Assembly: GCF_018446385.1 (NCBI RefSeq) | Contig: NC_055987.1 | Coordinates: 32,623,202 to 32,687,201, forward strand | From: Zingiber officinale | Taxonomy: Eukaryota; Streptophyta; Magnoliopsida; Zingiberales; Zingiberaceae | Direction of reading: 5' to 3' | DNA: 64,000 nt | Part shown: positions 34,936 through 42,900 of the stretch, one piece after another | Position numbering within the stretch: position 1 is the stretch's first letter | How the letters are laid out: the number at the start of each line of letters is the position of its first letter | Notes under the pieces: generated by a model | Databases searched by the model: none | What the model was told of the DNA's origin: nothing | Seen by the model: only the letters and a program-made list of their open reading frames with translations | Position numbers and translations under genes: made by a program

Positions 34936-35196
34936 TGATACGGGTTATGATAGGTCGACCTGGCTAGTGAAGGAGGGGTCAAGGTCGAGAAAGATAGGAA
35001 AGATATATAGCCGGGCGAGTGAAGGCCGAGCGAGCACCCACGTCCGGCAAAGTTTGCTCGAACGTAAAGGCACTTAGCCTTATTTATGACTTTTGGTACA
35101 TTATCGACCGACTGAAGGCCGAGTGAGCACCCATGTGCTCATATATGCTCGGACGGGCAAAACCCGCCGGAGCGTAAAGGCATTTAGCCTTATATA
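34936..35196 (+). repeat. LTR of the Tat-type fossil, left part before the hAT insertion
   Basis: The LTR starts tgatacgggttatg. It contains about one and a half copies of a ~110-bp unit (gcgagcaccca ... cgtaaaggcatttagcc) and stops at the hAT end. The right part continues at 41978. Confidence 0.65.
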
Positions 35197-35201
35197 TAGG
35201 G

Positions 35202-35375
35202 CTGAGCATTCGGTTAAAACCGAACCGAATAAACCGAAAACCGAATAAACCAAAATTTTTTAGACGAACCGAACCGACCGATTTCCACAAGAAAAACCGA
35301 GAAAACCGAACTGAAAAAAAATCGGTTTATTCGGTAAAAACCGAATAACCCGATTTAGCCGAATTTCCCATGAAC
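35202..35375. repeat. hAT left subterminal repeats
   Basis: About ten ACCGAA or TTCGGT words occur in 170 bp, in both orientations, for example aaccgaaccgaataaaccg. They are the likely binding sites of the hAT transposase. Confidence 0.75.
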
Positions 35376-35696
35376 TGAGTATTAAGACAAGTTAAAAATA
35401 CTGTTCCAAATTCTAACTTTTTTCGTATTTGCTTTCAATCTTTTTACCATCAATTTTCTCTATCAGTAGATATCACAATATGCAATCACATAATTCAAAA
35501 ATCATACTTGAGCCAAGATACGCAAATACAAAGAATGCAAGGATAAATTTCCTCCATCTCAACAACAACAACTAGCAGATATCACAATATTCAAAAACCA
35601 TACACGAGCTGGAAAAAATTTCATTATCTGGTCAGAATACTGCATAAAAACTTCTGAATTATAACCTGCAAGCATCCACAAAGAAGGCCCTGCAGA

Positions 35697-36249
35697 CTAG
35701 CTGCTTCTCCTTTTCTTGTTGGCTTCTCTCCTCCTCTCCTCTCCGGCCTTGGCCTCCATTTTCCTTAGAAGTTCTTCCGCATTGTCTGCCGAAATGACAA
35801 TGTGACTCGCAGAGTCCTCGATTAACCCTTCTCTCACTCCTTTGTCAAACAGTTGGATCAAATCGTTGTAGTAACCGTCCACATTCAGAATCCCAACCTG
35901 CTCAAATCAAGCAAATTGAGCTAGGGTGGTTTGATTATATTTTTCCAGCTTTTGGAATTTGATAGCAAGGTGCGTGTGCATGAATGACTGAGAGATGAGC
36001 TGTGTGCATTACTCACTGGTTTGTGGTGGATGCCAAGCTGAGACCAAGCTATTATCTCAAGAAGCTCCTCCATGGTTCCATAGCCACCTAAGAGTTTGGG
36101 GATTATAAGTTGACTTGAGATTGTTTCAGATAATTCACTTGGGTCTCACCTGGAAGATCAATGAAGGCATATGCATTCTTAGCCATTTCTAACTTCCTCT
36201 CGTGCATGTCTGCAACTCTTTTCACCTCACCGATGCTTTCTACTAATAT
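35697..36249 (-). pseudogene. LOG: LOG-family fragment (cytokinin riboside 5'-monophosphate phosphoribohydrolase), captured in hAT
   Basis: Three consecutive exons are present on the minus strand with normal splice signals: 36150-36249, 36017-36089 and 35697-35897. They encode [20 protein letters not shown], then [12 protein letters not shown] (the LOG catalytic motif PGGxGTxxE, split by an intron after the proline codon), QLGIHHKP, and [19 protein letters not shown] to a stop. LOG enzymes release active cytokinin bases from their nucleotides in the cytosol. Only the C-terminal ~125 residues of a ~210-residue protein are here; the N-terminal exons with the nucleotide-binding loop are absent. 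The tail after KMEA is Lys/Arg/Glu-rich. The fragment lies inside the hAT ends and on the transposase strand. No stop or frameshift was seen in the three exons, so the copy may be recent. Confidence 0.88.
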
Positions 36250-37115
36250 CTGCACACAAAAATTTCTTTGCTGCTTAGCCGTTTTCTTGTAGCCAAAATA
36301 AAAATAGAACTATCTATATATTGAAACAAGATATATAGAGGGACATCATCTGGAACTGCACCTCACTTCTGCAGTAGTGCAGTTCCACCTCACTTCTGCA
36401 GTAGTGCAGTTCATTCTGCTTCTCACGCTCATCTGAAGACTTCAAGACTATATATTCATGAGAATGGCTAGCTATATTCATGAAAGAACAAATCAAAAAA
36501 AGAATATATCAAGAAGGACAAAGCAAATAAGACTTGAATACAGAATTAATTCAAGGAAAATATCAAGATCCCTATTTTTTATCCATACATCAGAAGAGAT
36601 CAAACCTCCTTTTTTTTTTTTTGCCTCTTTTTTGCTTTTAGTGAATCTTTTGTAAACCTCTATATTAAGAGGTATCTATCCTGTAACTAGAATAATCACA
36701 AAAATAATACATTTTTTTAATCATTTAACTATATCAGCTTTTCTATTGACATATTATTATATTCTTCCAAACATCTAGCACCAAATGCGACATAAGGTAT
36801 TAAGGTTAGGTACATCAAACAAAAACAAAACTGCAATTTGCCATTTTTCAGGAAACACATTCCAATCAGCATACTTTCCAAACTATAGAATGAGTGGGAT
36901 GCTCAAAATCTAAATATAAAATTGTATCAAAGATTTTCAGAAAGAAAAAAAAAGAAGAATCTTTCCCAGTTCCCACAATATATCAACAAAGATTACCATT
37001 TACAACAAAGTTTATAAGGCATGTGTCTCAATGCACAAATAAATATGCACATGGCTGCTACCTCGAGTCCTGGACATTTAATTAATTCAATCAACTTGCT
37101 TAAAGTCAGACTTAC
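36250..37115 (-). other. hAT interior between LOG and NEK fragments
   Basis: This is AT-rich sequence without a recognised gene. It includes a duplicated hairpin at 36352-36412 and a poly-T run at 36610-36622. Confidence 0.5.
36352..36412. repeat. 26-bp tandem duplication with a 10-bp inverted repeat
   Basis: GGAACTGCAC at 36352-36361 pairs perfectly with GTGCAGTTCC at 36377-36386, and the unit cctcacttctgcagtagtgc occurs twice with a 26-bp period. The DNA or RNA could fold as a hairpin. Confidence 0.75.
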
Positions 37116-37319
37116 AAAAGCTTTAAATGCAGGTCGATGAGCAACCATCTCATACACGCAACAACTTGCTCGATGATTTCCAAATTAATCATATGCATAA
37201 TCCACCAGAAAGAATTTGGTATAGAAATTCATGAAGAAGTCATACCTAAGGACCAGATATCTGACTTAAATCCATAAGGAATATGCTGGAGCTCTGGACA
37301 TATGGAATATGCCGAATAT
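37116..37319 (-). pseudogene. NEK (NIMA-related) kinase fragment, two exons, captured in hAT
   Basis: The exon 37246-37319, with acceptor tgcag and donor gtatga, encodes [19 protein letters not shown]. The next exon (about 37116-37165, donor gtaagt) encodes CCVYEMVAHRPAFKAF. Together these match the activation-segment to helix-F region of plant NEK kinases ([26 protein letters not shown]). Relative to the family one residue is missing after PEL. The acceptor of the second exon does not give the expected phase, so the copy looks decayed. The rest of the kinase is not visible. It lies in the hAT element, same strand as the transposase. Confidence 0.8.
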
Positions 37320-37703
37320 CTGCAAGGAAAAAGAAATCCAATCAAAGATTAACCTAGCAGAAATTATCAGACATGTTTTACATGGGTTATAATTTGGAGG
37401 TCTAACCTTACAACAAACCATAAATTTTGAATATTGTAAAAAGTGAAGTAAACAAGTCACATACTCACATGAATGAAACCAACACATATCCTCATTCAGT
37501 TCAGATGAAACCAAACATACATTTCACTCAATCACATAATTGAGTTGTCACAAAAGAGAACTCCAAATAAAACTGTCAATAAGAAAACACCACAAAAGAA
37601 GCAAAGTCTACTTGTTTGAGACATACAAAAAACTTCACACAATTGTTTGGTTACATCAAGATAAAAAAATTCATAATTTGGATGGCAGCTTTCACGTATA
37701 CAT
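37320..37703 (-). other. hAT interior between NEK and CDC48-like fragments
   Basis: AT-rich, no coding similarity recognised. It is probably intron or 3' flank carried along with the captured fragments. Confidence 0.4.
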
Positions 37704-37784
37704 CAGAGAGCAACATTAAAACAGAAAGCAGCAAGGTCAACCCCAACATAGCTATGTGTCCTTAGCAATCCTTTCCAAATAAAC
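37704..37784 (-). pseudogene. Probable CDC48/p97 AAA-ATPase exon fragment, captured in hAT
   Basis: After an acceptor (aatgcag) the minus strand reads VYLERIAKDT and, after a one-base shift of frame, HSYVGVDLAAF. This matches the CDC48 D1 segment VDLERIAKDTHGYVGADLAALC. Only about 27 residues are recognisable, so the call is tentative. It is non-coding in its present state and lies between the NEK fragment and the transposase. Confidence 0.55.
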
Positions 37785-38588
37785 CTGCATTATACACATC
37801 AAACTGCATAAATTCATCTATTCACAGGACTACTATTAAGAAAATTTGTAAATTTTTAAGATCAAACTGCATGCTACTATTAAGAAAATTTGTAAATTTT
37901 TGGAAAGACCAAGTAGTAAATGGACAAAGAAAACTATTTCACAAGACTCCTAGTTAGAGTTTGAAATGGATAAGGGGAGAAGCTTATAGTAACAAATGTA
38001 GCCAACAAAGCCTCACAAGTTCAAGAACCGAAAGCTTTTCAAACTTTAAATGAAGACCATTAAATGTTACAGGTGATGCCAATCCAAGAAATTGGAGGTA
38101 AGCAAGTTATGTAGAGTTTCTAATCACTAACTCATATTTCTCAATTTTTGGACTACTTCATGGTGGATTATGTCAACAGATTCCACATTTGTCCGGCTAG
38201 AAACTTACGAGTTCAATCAACAACATAGAAAGAATTCATATTTCACTAGAAAAGTTTGAGATGCTAGAATTTTTTAAACATAGTAACAAGTTCCAAGACA
38301 GAAAACATAGTCAAAATTACCATAAAGTAGTCAACATTAATTGATCAAGTCCTATTGAGCTAGATTGCTAGCTTGGATGGCAAGGTTGACATACCTTTTT
38401 CTTTCCGCAAGTGATTCTATATAGCTGCAAACACCACAAAAATTGAGGAATAACAATACTACAGAAAGTGAGTAAATTAGAAAGTGAGCAAATTAGAAAC
38501 AACAACACTTATATCATCATATAGCTTCATGTTCTTAGTATCGAGGTCAATTTATATAAAATATAATATTTAAACATACCATTGATCC
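37785..38588 (-). other. hAT interior between captured fragments and transposase
   Basis: AT-rich. A possible 30-bp micro-exon with good acceptor and donor lies at about 38393-38424 (could encode YIESLAERK), but its parent gene is not recognised. Confidence 0.4.
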
Positions 38589-40910
38589 TTATGTCACCGG
38601 TGTTGTCGAAGAAGACGAGTCCATTATGATTTTTGAGAAATCTGGTAAATACATGCAAGTTAAGTAAATAAAGTTTATAATTATAAATAAAAATTTAATT
38701 ATATTTTTTTTAAAAAAGGAAAACTTACCATTTTCAAGTTTTTCCACATCCTCTAAAATTTCTTCAACATTGAGTGATTGTAAATTTAACCGAAGCCAAT
38801 CTTGAGTACAAATAAGACTTTCTACCACATTAGGAGTCAATGAACTCCGAAAACAATCAAGTACCCGACCACTAGTACTGAAAGCGGATTCTGAAGCAAC
38901 TGTCGATATCGGAATAGCTAATACATCACGAGCAATTTGAGAAAGGATAGGAAATCTGTGACAATTTTGCTTCCACCATCCCAAAATGTCAAAAGTATCA
39001 CAATATTCTTCAACTATTTCATTAAGATACTTGTCTAATTCTGACATATTGCCATCACCAAAAACTTGTGCCTTTTGTTTTTATACTTCACTATGATTGC
39101 TTGTCTTTTCAAATCACTCATATTTGTTGAAGTATTATCATTGTCAACTGATTCTGGAATAGATGAAACTATTGAAGTACCACATTGAGGCTCCATTTTT
39201 TCCTTATAATTCTTGTACAAAGCAAATAAAGTGTCCTTTATTATCTTTCCTACTTTTGCACCCTTCTCATCTCCATATAATTCAATCAACATAAATTCTA
39301 CGAAATCTAATTTATACCTTGGATCAAGCACCACAGCAATATAAAGCAACTTATTCATTTTCTCGGGATCTCCCCAATACTTGTCAAATTTGTTTTTCAT
39401 TCTAATTCCCATTGAATACACATCAATATCATCACTTTGTTGCCACTCCTTCAAGATGGTATGGATATAACTAATCTCGTGTGCAAAAGTATTGGATGTG
39501 ACATACAAAGATCCTGAAACTTTTAATGTTAGTTCATAAAAAACTTGCAGTAAAGATGCAAAAAGTCTAACATTATTCCAATATGCACTTGTTGGTTTCC
39601 CATCAAAAGTCTTCAATTCTCTTTTAGGTTTACCATCTGATTCAAATATCATCTCTTCATTCTCATTCAAAATAACTTGCCATTCTGTATATTGAAGATC
39701 TAATTTAAAACATGGATCTTGTTCATCAAACCTATCAAAAGCTCTTTCAAATTTTTGAGCTGTATTCAACATCAAGAAAGTTGAGTTCCATCTGATTGGT
39801 ACATCTAAACATAATGAGTTCTTGCTTTCAATTTTTTTCAATCTCTACACATTCTTTGAACTTACTTAATCTAGAGGGAGATTACTTAACATATTTGATT
39901 GCATTCCTGACCTTCAACACAGATTGATTTATATCTTTTAAGCCATCAGTAACAATCAAATTGATTACATGAGTTACGCATCTCATATGGACATATTCTC
40001 CCTTTAAAATAGTGGAATCCCAATTAGTCATCTTTTTTCTGAAACTATTGATAGCAACATCATTTGAACTTGCATTATCAACTGTAATAGTAAAAATTTT
40101 GTTCATTCCCCAACCCCTCAAGCAATTTTCAATGGCTAAACTAATAACCTCACCTTTATGACTTGTAATTGGACAAAAATTGATAATTCTTTTATGTAAA
40201 TTCCAATTTTTATCAATGAAATGGGCTGTTAGACACATATAATTGATTTTCTGAATCGATGACCATGTATCAGTGGTCAAACAAACCCTTTGTGCTGAAT
40301 CATGTAACAATTTTTTCAATTTTTCCCTTTCAACGACATATAATTCAACACAATCACGTGCAACCGTCCATCTTGAAGGAATTCGAAATTTTGGGCATAC
40401 CATAGCCATAAATGTTTTAAATCCTTCTCTTTCTACAAATTTGAAAGGGAGTTCATCCATTATGATCATTCTAGCTAATGCTTTTCTAGATGCATCTTGA
40501 TCAAATTTCCAAGAAGTTAAACACACCTCACCCTCTTTTAAACTTTGTTGTAAACTTAGCTGTGCTTGAGTTGTTTCAATAACATGAGGGTGTTTTTTAC
40601 ATGAGGTAATATGAGATCTCAAGCTTGTTGTCCCATTTCTATATGGATCACAAAAAAATTCTTTATCACAATATTTGCATTTGGCTTTCATATCTGATGC
40701 ATCATTAGTAAACTTTATAAAATGATCCCATACTTCACTTCTTGGTTTCATTGCTTTTCTCTTAGTTGCCTTTCCTTTATAATCTACAGTAGTTTTTGTT
40801 CCCACTGAAGGACCAATTTCAGATTCTTGTACTGAACAACTATTATTAACATCCATATTTGATAAATCTCCTTGCATAAATACCAGATAAATATTGATCA
40901 CAGTCTTCAC
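38589..40910 (-). pseudogene. hAT transposase (zf-BED, RICESLEEPER/DAYSLEEPER-like), decayed
   Basis: From right to left: an N-terminal basic region and BED zinc finger (EVWDHFIKF ... CKYCDKEF ... LRSHITSCKKH) at about 40600-40770; then the catalytic domain with TTDTWSS, FCPITSHKGE, WGMNKIFTITVDNASSND and DVPIRWNSTFLML; and the C-terminal dimerisation domain (KYLNE, FPILSQIARDVLAIPISTVA, ESAFSTSGRVLD). The family is usually one ~650-700 residue frame. Here a stop interrupts it after IKYVK near 39885, and shifts of frame occur near 39845 and 39060, so it cannot make a full protein. A 3' intron seems present (donor gtaagttt near 38725, acceptor taccag near 38648), followed by a short end exon with stop at 38589. 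A cut-and-paste enzyme in origin, acting on the ends at 35197 and 41977. Confidence 0.88.
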
Positions 40911-41799
40911 ATATCACAGACACTGTTAAAAATTGCAAGTGTAATAATACTGTTTAAAATATAATTAACTAAAACTAAAAAAACAAATATGAAACTCAAC
41001 AAGCATGATAATACTTATCAGGATATCTAAACACTGTTAACTACTTGAGTTCAATAAAAATTCATATGTTAGCACAGGATCAATGCAAGGATTACTAACT
41101 AATGTTGCCAAGACCCAAGATGTGAGTCTGTAACTGAGACTAAAAAAGGAAAAGGAAGAATTAAAACCAATAATTTGTGTATTCTGAAAACAAAAAGAAA
41201 AAACAGGAAGCCAAAATCCATACATAGAAAACCCTAAACCCTTAAAATGTAGTAATTATCCAATCAATAGAACACAAACTAAATGCGACTTAATGAATTT
41301 CTTGCAAATACCTCTAATTTATGCAGGCAGTCTAGTCTTAGTGTGAGGACAAGGAGATTTCCTGGAGCAATGAGCACTCGAGTGGTGACTGGTGAGAGTG
41401 ACGAGAGGGTGAACAGGGAGGATAGACGGAGATGCTGAGTCGCAGCAGCCTTGCAGGTGCTCGGCCACGGGAGGACTGACGGAAGACGAGATCGTCGAGA
41501 TGGAAGGAGAGACGAGAGAGGGTTGAGCAAGGCGGAGAGGTGGAGTTGCAGATGATCAACGACGAGAGTCAGAAAGATCGAGTGATGCACTGACGCGGTG
41601 CGGCGGTGGGGAAGGGCCAAGGGGGGAGACGTGACTCGTGAGAGCGGCGGCGAGGGAATGAGAAAGTCAGAAAACCCTAGCCGAATAAATCTGGTGTGGA
41701 CCGTGTCCGTGTGCCGTCTGCTGTGCCCGTGTCATGACTCGTGACTGGTGACTTACTGACTTTTGGATTAAAACCTAAACTAGTAAACATATTAAATAA
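40911..41799 (-). other. hAT 5' untranslated and promoter region
   Basis: This lies upstream of the transposase on the minus strand. The part at about 41340-41650 is unusually GC-rich for the element and has CT-rich minus-strand sequence, a possible promoter or leader. No gene is recognised. Confidence 0.4.
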
Positions 41800-41966
41800 T
41801 TCGGTTGTTTCGGTTTAACCGAATAGGTAACTTTAAACCCGAACCCGAATCGAAAAACCCGAAAAAACCGAATTATTTAACCGAATTAACCGAAATTTCG
41901 AATTAAACGAACCGAATTTAAAAAATCGGCCTGTTCGGTCGGTTTATTCGGTTTGACCGAACTTTT
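41800..41966. repeat. hAT right subterminal repeats
   Basis: About a dozen ACCGAA or TTCGGT words occur in 165 bp, mirroring the left end. Confidence 0.75.
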
Positions 41967-41977
41967 GCTCACCCCTA

Positions 41978-42900
41978 GGCAAAGCCCGCCTGAGCGTAAA
42001 GGCATTTAGCCTCATATATGATTCTTAACATGTTACCGGCTGACCGAAGGCCAAGCAAGTACCCATGTGTTTATATATGCTCGGTCGGGCAAAGCCCGCC
42101 CGAGCGTAAAAATACTTTACTTTATAGCAGCTTATGGTATATTACCGACCAACAGCTTATGGTCAAAATGCACTCGTCCGGGTAAAGTCTGACCGAGCAT
42201 AAGGGCACCCAACCTCCTAAAGTTAATAAAAATTCTCGACCGAAACATGCTTAGCAGGAGACATTCTTAATATATATATACGATCGGCTTGAATGATCAG
42301 CCAAGACATGTTCAACAAAAGACATTTTTAATATATGCAGCCGACTTGAATGACCGATCGAGACATGCCTAATAGAATATTTGGCGGAAAATATCTTCTA
42401 AAAACTTCTTCAGTTATAATGGCGTGTCCCCATCATAAATATTAGTCATAAACAACAAAACGGATACATCTGGAGTACAAAAAAGATTCCTTAAAAGATT
42501 ATTGCATGAAGTATAGAAGATGACTTCATCTTCTAACAAACCCTAACGAATCAGGGACTACTTCACGACTACGGAGATCATATAAGGTAGTATAAAAAGA
42601 GAGGATCCTCTCTGTTGGCAAGGTACGCAAGTTCTAGCATCTAAACTCTGTTTCTAAATACTTCAGTTACTGTTCTTCTTTTTCTTTCTTCCACCTTTGA
42701 GAGAGAAACTGACCTGAGCGTCGGAGGGTCTAGCCAGGAATTCCCACTCCGGTCTTAAGTCACTGACGCTTTGTTAGTTTGTCGCACTGTGCATAGGATC
42801 GTGGAGAAGTTCTTTTAGATCTCTAGGAGGCTATCTTCATCAAGGATTATCGTTCACCGGAACCAACACACGTCTTCGCAGATTTCAGACAGGATCAACC
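41978..42900 (+). repeat. LTR of the Tat-type fossil, right part after the hAT insertion
   Basis: The segment continues the ~110-bp units (ggcaaagcccgcctgagcg at 41978), then unique LTR sequence with gagcgtcggagggtc at about 42718 and the LTR end near 42900. The exact end is uncertain. Agenet gene 2 starts about 200 bp further on. Confidence 0.6.

Follow-up and report, generated by a model that had tools for sequence, protein, structure and literature searches.

The stretch of the ginger (Zingiber officinale) genome analysed here, a window of 64,000 nucleotides (C2:32623202-32687201), contains at 35197-41977 a hAT DNA transposon in which pieces of host genes lie beside a transposase gene. This raises the question of how such pieces entered the element, in which order they did so, and whether an element loaded in this way can still move. 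We consider it highly probable that the window copy belongs to a hAT family in which part of a NEK kinase gene was copied first, in an ancestor, and part of a LOG gene later, in one of its descendants, both into the space separating the transposase gene from the left end and apparently by break-repair copying, with a third piece then gained in two descendants. The captured pieces are genomic, since they keep their introns; their donors are still standing, and the cargo-bearing element has transposed, because such loaded elements occur at separate places in the genome and have perfect target-site duplications (TSDs) that differ from one another.

The genome searched comprises 3,090,333,446 bases in 211 contigs, from an assembly that its authors present as haplotype-resolved, with pseudochromosomes in 11 homologous pairs (PMC8342452). 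Among our search matches, C1/C2, C7/C8 and C9/C10 act as allelic pairs. Genome searches reported the best 40 candidates, of 431 and 614 for the two element ends and of 192 for the query 35600-38600. From a larger family, 18 elements were read, picked because they resemble the ends and the stretch 35600-38600: the window copy, L030/31, L032, L033, L034, L035, L036/37 and L038-L048.

The boundaries of the element, which is 6,781 bp long and lies on the minus strand by the orientation of its transposase, are drawn from its terminal inverted repeats (TIRs) and from the TSDs of sister copies. The left TIR (TAGGGCTGAGCA, 35197-35208, plus strand) and the right one (TGCTCACCCCTA, 41966-41977, minus strand), both recognized from the sequence and from sister copies, are 12 bp long and differ by one mismatch, in agreement with the short TIRs of hAT elements, and CCGAA-rich subterminal repeats adjoin them at 35209-35375 and 41793-41965. 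The sequence-only reading of this window had already placed hAT ends at 35197 and 41977, and the genome bears this out: in the best 40 of 431 and 40 of 614 candidates, the left and right ends occur together at many places, mostly about 5-8 kb apart and at a few wider spacings.

The transposase gene (38589-40913, minus strand) carries the BED, hAT-like RNase-H and C-terminal dimerization (Dimer_Tnp_hAT) domains in Pfam. In the window copy these domains are found in pieces, as the frame is broken into three open reading frames (ORFs) of 343, 269 and 163 aa, counted stop to stop, whereas in copies L033 and L042 they are uninterrupted. L042, without any captured piece, has an open transposase of 723 aa; L033 (C1:133240978-133249142), which holds LOG, NEK and ERV pieces, has an open ORF of 762 aa with all three domains, the C-terminal part of which matches the Hermes transposase. 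Judged by this frame, L033 could be an autonomous copy with three captured pieces aboard. The transposase is interrupted in the four other copies with LOG and NEK, in one of which, on C14, it is broken by about 9.3 kb of DNA at C14:71646662-71655954 (between L031 and L030). In the best 40 of 192 matches, the adjoining 37437-38600 matches many genome places, most of them at hAT copies, with individual places such as C11:128256326 and C12:142037129 left unassigned. A promoter scan with a sigma-70 model, which is unsuited to a plant, gave none.

Both captured pieces of the window copy lie on the transposase strand with their introns, as the sequence-only reading had described them, and both could be aligned to donor loci elsewhere in the genome. 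The LOG piece (35697-36368, minus strand) is the 3' half of the gene, comprising the last three exons with their introns down to the donor stop codon; it is 97.3% identical to the donor L049 and keeps its splice sites and stop. PF03641 was found in three exon-sized ORFs, two above the Pfam cut-off and one just below it, and the exons also match plant LOG-like proteins in the PDB. In the best 40 of 192 matches, five elements contain the LOG segment, which is also present at C1:639780 (97%) and at C2:144392 (94%), and the donor locus carries additional LOG exons upstream, as read from frames. Summed over the five copies, 34 of the 75 differences from L049 are C>T or G>A, an uncontrolled raw count that would fit methylation of the DNA.

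The NEK piece (36459-37427, minus strand) consists of parts of two kinase-domain exons with introns and aligns to its donor L050 in two blocks, of 92.4% and 98.9% identity, with a rearranged stretch near 37303-37334. Pfam alone left its kinase match below threshold; the joined exon translation has NEK7, NEK2 and NEK1 as its best PDB matches. Among the same best 40 of 192, the NEK segment was found in seven elements, at C7:3191297 and C8:2377373, and in a weaker pair at 14.4 Mb of C9/C10; further NEK exons, again read from frames, lie on both sides of the donor locus. In two sister copies, different repeats have inserted at nearly one point within the NEK piece (L035:1747-3778 and L036:1713-6776). 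The second resembles a Copia-type long terminal repeat element, having a gag-like frame of 540 aa and a pair of repeats of 1.07 kb that are 95% similar to each other, and both inserts look like ordinary repeats. The sequence-only reading had named CDC48 as a probable further captured gene; we dropped this candidate, as Pfam scans of 16 window ORFs (10 + 6, covering part of the short frames) gave neither AAA nor CDC48. Its description of three captured genes with a transposase thus holds for the capture and for the presence of a transposase, while the window copy has two captured genes, LOG and NEK, and a broken transposase.

The junctions of the two pieces can be read against copies that lack them. 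On either side of LOG stands a copy of CTGCAG (35690-35695 and 36369-36374), as seen from the alignment with LOG-free copies and with the donor, and copy L041 represents the pre-LOG site, with a single CTGCAG where LOG-bearing copies have one on each side of the insert. At the left LOG edge, a single extra A follows CTGCAG at position 35696, and a 27-bp tandem duplication absent from L034 and L030 spans the right junction (36359-36412). Before NEK lies a filler (36441-36458), the TATRTATTCA part of which is missing in the donor and common to copies with NEK only and with LOG and NEK; at the point where NEK-bearing copies switch into NEK, L041 continues with its own sequence.

A search with both ends for the same contents, as the sequence-only reading had proposed, led to a graded series of copies. 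LOG and NEK are present together in five of the 18 elements read (the window copy, L030/31, L032, L033 and L034), NEK without LOG in two (L035 and L036/37), and neither in the remaining 11 (L038-L048). In a midpoint-rooted tree of the transposase region of the 18 copies, with captured DNA excluded, the LOG copies group together with support of 100/97, the two copies with the ERV piece being nested within them (96/94); all NEK-bearing copies group with L041 (100/99), and L038 with L040 (100/98). As the root is a midpoint root and the fork of L035, L037, L041 and the LOG clade is unsettled, the order of NEK before LOG rests mainly on the NEK left junction, which, filler included, is common to NEK-only and LOG+NEK copies; a single NEK capture preceding LOG is therefore the most likely reading of these sequences. 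Tree and shared junctions together support a series in which the element would have gained NEK, then LOG and then, in two copies, ERV. The differences from the donors (13-18 in 672-690 sites for LOG and 19-39 in 612-830 sites for NEK) agree weakly with this order, because the pieces differ in exon content.

Further captures are found in sister copies. In L032 (1683-3314) and L033, a third piece of 1.63 kb between LOG and NEK matches C10:125.6 Mb (98%, largest block) and C9:135.7 Mb (95%). Exons of the C9 donor match COPIIcoated_ERV (PF07970), with one match exceeding the Pfam cut-off and the other falling short of it, and are thus Erv/ERGIC-like; the name comes from Pfam, the short ERV exon having given no match in the PDB. 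The insert is bounded by a 13-bp duplication of element sequence, ACTAGAATAATCA; about 0.3 kb of the LOG/NEK border was lost with it, and the piece leaves out an internal stretch of about 0.77 kb that the donor has. In the L038 sub-lineage, a piece of about 0.69 kb (L038:678-1363) is shared with copies at C1:30.2 Mb (C1:30218228, 99%) and C13:54.3 Mb (C13:54326647, 97%) and partly with L040. Among the matches listed, it also occurs at five loci on C13, C21 and C22 (89-93%) and at two more (77-78%); on C22, the locus codes for a BET domain (PF17035). The captured exon of 52 aa gave by itself no Pfam match, so that the BET name depends on the donor exon joined to it. A stretch of about 285 bp in L045 (760-1045) is shared, among the matches listed, with only C3:38.31, C2:192.09 and C3:54.93 Mb, making four family copies, and is possibly another insert. 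The sequence-only reading took the shared strand of the pieces as a sign that one promoter could make chimeric transcripts; in the family, NEK, LOG and ERV are in sense with the transposase and BET is antisense to it, and three of four capture events are too few to claim an excess of sense orientation. All four captures are located on the side of the transposase gene that faces the left end. Selection to keep the transposase intact, or the way in which the copies were chosen, may account for this placement as readily as a preferred site.

The target sites tell of movement. When the flanks of the 18 elements were compared, perfect 8-bp TSDs, the length known for hAT elements, were found in 11, all of them different, so that the family as a whole shows this mark. 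They include four of the five LOG+NEK copies (L032, L033, L034 and L030/31), at different sites, and one of the two NEK-only copies (L036/37); imperfect TSDs flank L042 (7 of 8 bases) and L046 and L048 (6 of 8), and no clear TSD was found around the window copy, L035, L040 or L047. For L033 and L030/31, the two flanks put together match repeat copies elsewhere without interruption (97% and 86% at best), that is, related empty sites, and the insertion boundaries are therefore fixed; these matches are high-copy repeats and do not identify the allelic site. The window copy lies in a tandem array of 110-bp units, a remnant of which forms the left flank (35011-35196), while the right flank (41978-42126) is the same array out of phase with the left. 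On the other haplotype (C1:28.31 Mb; L051:1-1440), the 1.9 kb examined contains at least 13.1 units of this array and no hAT element, whereas on C2 fewer than two units are found to the left and to the right of the element. Since the window flanks correspond to the C1 array with an offset, the TSD of the window copy was probably lost by rearrangement in the array. LOG matches in the best 40 of 192 form no allele pair, those at C1:133.2 and C2:163.6 being oppositely oriented and having different TSDs. The insertions thus look haplotype-specific, a point checked directly at the window site only.

As for mechanism, we propose that a family member would have copied the NEK piece, and one of its descendants the LOG piece, into the region downstream of the transposase, toward the left end, and that two descendants would then have taken up a third gene piece. 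The copying would be double-strand-break repair with template switching, after which the loaded element would transpose. We infer this route from the duplicated element bases at the insert edges, the filler and the lost element sequence, and repair-type copying of gene DNA is, on these junctions, the likely way of capture.

Several points weigh against this account. The window copy has no TSD and its transposase is interrupted, and a perfect TSD is missing in 7 of the 18 elements. The tree has only a midpoint root and leaves the fork at L035, L037, L041 and the LOG clade unsettled. The copies are a similarity-chosen sample, drawn from the best 40 candidates of each search; repair is a mechanism read from junctions, not observed, and the movement of the family is judged from sequence.

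Taken by itself, the window copy, with no TSD and with flanks out of phase, might be an ordinary gene region that happens to lie between two unrelated hAT ends, the case that the sequence-only reading had put forward against itself. This has next to no chance of being right: four further sites, all with perfect TSDs, have the same ends around the same contents, LOG and NEK have their donors at separate loci, on C1/C2 and C7/C8, and the other haplotype is element-free in the 1.9 kb examined. The pieces could also have been brought in by another transposon, a Helitron, a MULE or similar, inserted within the hAT element, as every piece is a block and LOG and ERV are bounded by direct duplications of element sequence. 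We regard this as very unlikely, for these duplications are of unequal size (6 and 13 bp), part of the element disappeared in the ERV event, donor similarity reaches the junctions and leaves little space for other ends, and the LOG and NEK segments were seen, in the best 40 of 192 matches, only in hAT copies and gene loci.

Another explanation accepts the capture and holds that the window copy was placed by recombination of two hAT copies in the tandem array, or by array deletion, and not by plain insertion. The missing TSD, flanks that are one 110-bp array offset by part of a unit, and at least 13.1 units on C1 against under two per side on C2 speak for it, but there is a single element at the site and a change of the array after insertion also explains the data; the chances appear evenly balanced, and the outcome would change only the history of the window copy, leaving the capture story unaffected. 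That the captured exons are expressed and selected as new chimeric genes is suggested by the LOG exons of the window copy, L032 and L033, which have kept open frames and their splice sites, and by LOG, NEK and ERV all being in sense with the transposase in this lineage. It is very unlikely, however: with L030 omitted for an 8-bp insertion that shifts the frame, the exons of the other four of the five copies show 13 non-synonymous and 2 synonymous changes, near the 287:76 ratio of sites and thus with no sign of selection, and the LOG piece lacks the N-terminal half while the BET piece is antisense. On the capture account that we favour, the pieces are fragments and probably not functional proteins: with LOG missing its N-terminal half and NEK reduced to parts of two exons, neither is expected to work as an enzyme by itself. 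They might act by way of read-through transcripts or small RNAs.

Helitrons typically have neither TIRs nor TSDs and encode a Rep/helicase protein, and Pack-MULEs combine MULE TIRs with a 9-bp TSD. The ginger family belongs to neither class, having 12-bp TIRs, 8-bp TSDs and a hAT transposase. Stepwise gain of several gene pieces across related copies, as described for maize Helitrons (PMC3288121), is alike in both cases, although superfamily, ends and enzyme differ. The closest precedent is Hatvine-6 of grapevine, likewise a transposase-bearing hAT with gene pieces, whose copies are reported to share transposase and TIRs around a variable region that often matches genic introns and exons; to what that report describes, the ginger family adds a capture order with donors, TSDs, a transposase tree and a three-piece copy with an open, full-length transposase (PMC2528002). 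The Pack-hAT elements of maize and rice, part of the Pack-TYPE group, are similar in having hAT ends, 8-bp TSDs and captured host coding DNA between the TIRs; in the scheme given by their authors they are non-autonomous by definition, and any element giving a hit to a transposase is put in a separate, autonomous group (PMC8903248). In the ginger family the transposase gene has been retained, in broken form in the window copy and as an open frame in L033, and because of its presence we describe the family as a gene-capturing hAT rather than as a strict Pack-TYPE element. Among animal Pack-TIRs, 208 of 370 are given as hAT, with microhomology and filler at breakpoints and a gap-filling model with template switching, and four multicopy cases (1.4%) are counted (PMC8277862). 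Compared with what is set out there, the ginger family differs in having five copies of its two-piece form, a class with three pieces, and a transposase gene on the same element. A search of the open literature found no report of a stepwise-resolved hAT capture series or of this ginger family. Gene-capturing, transposase-bearing hATs are thus already known, and the ginger case is unusually complete.

A bolder view, which we think rather improbable, is that of a self-mobile hAT lineage gathering host genes serially in a preferred stretch downstream of its transposase, in sense and fusable to its own transcript, with L033 as a living example, recently active enough to differ between haplotypes. 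Pipelines that file elements with a transposase hit as autonomous, as in the scheme mentioned above (PMC8903248), would miss such gene-capturing elements. In ginger, capture-free, one-, two- and three-piece forms coexist in one genome, with the donors standing and the junctions readable base by base, and this coexistence allows tests of the sequence of events in hAT gene capture and of its likely repair route. The usual capture element shows the finished product only; here, a transposon can be seen to load several pieces and still move.

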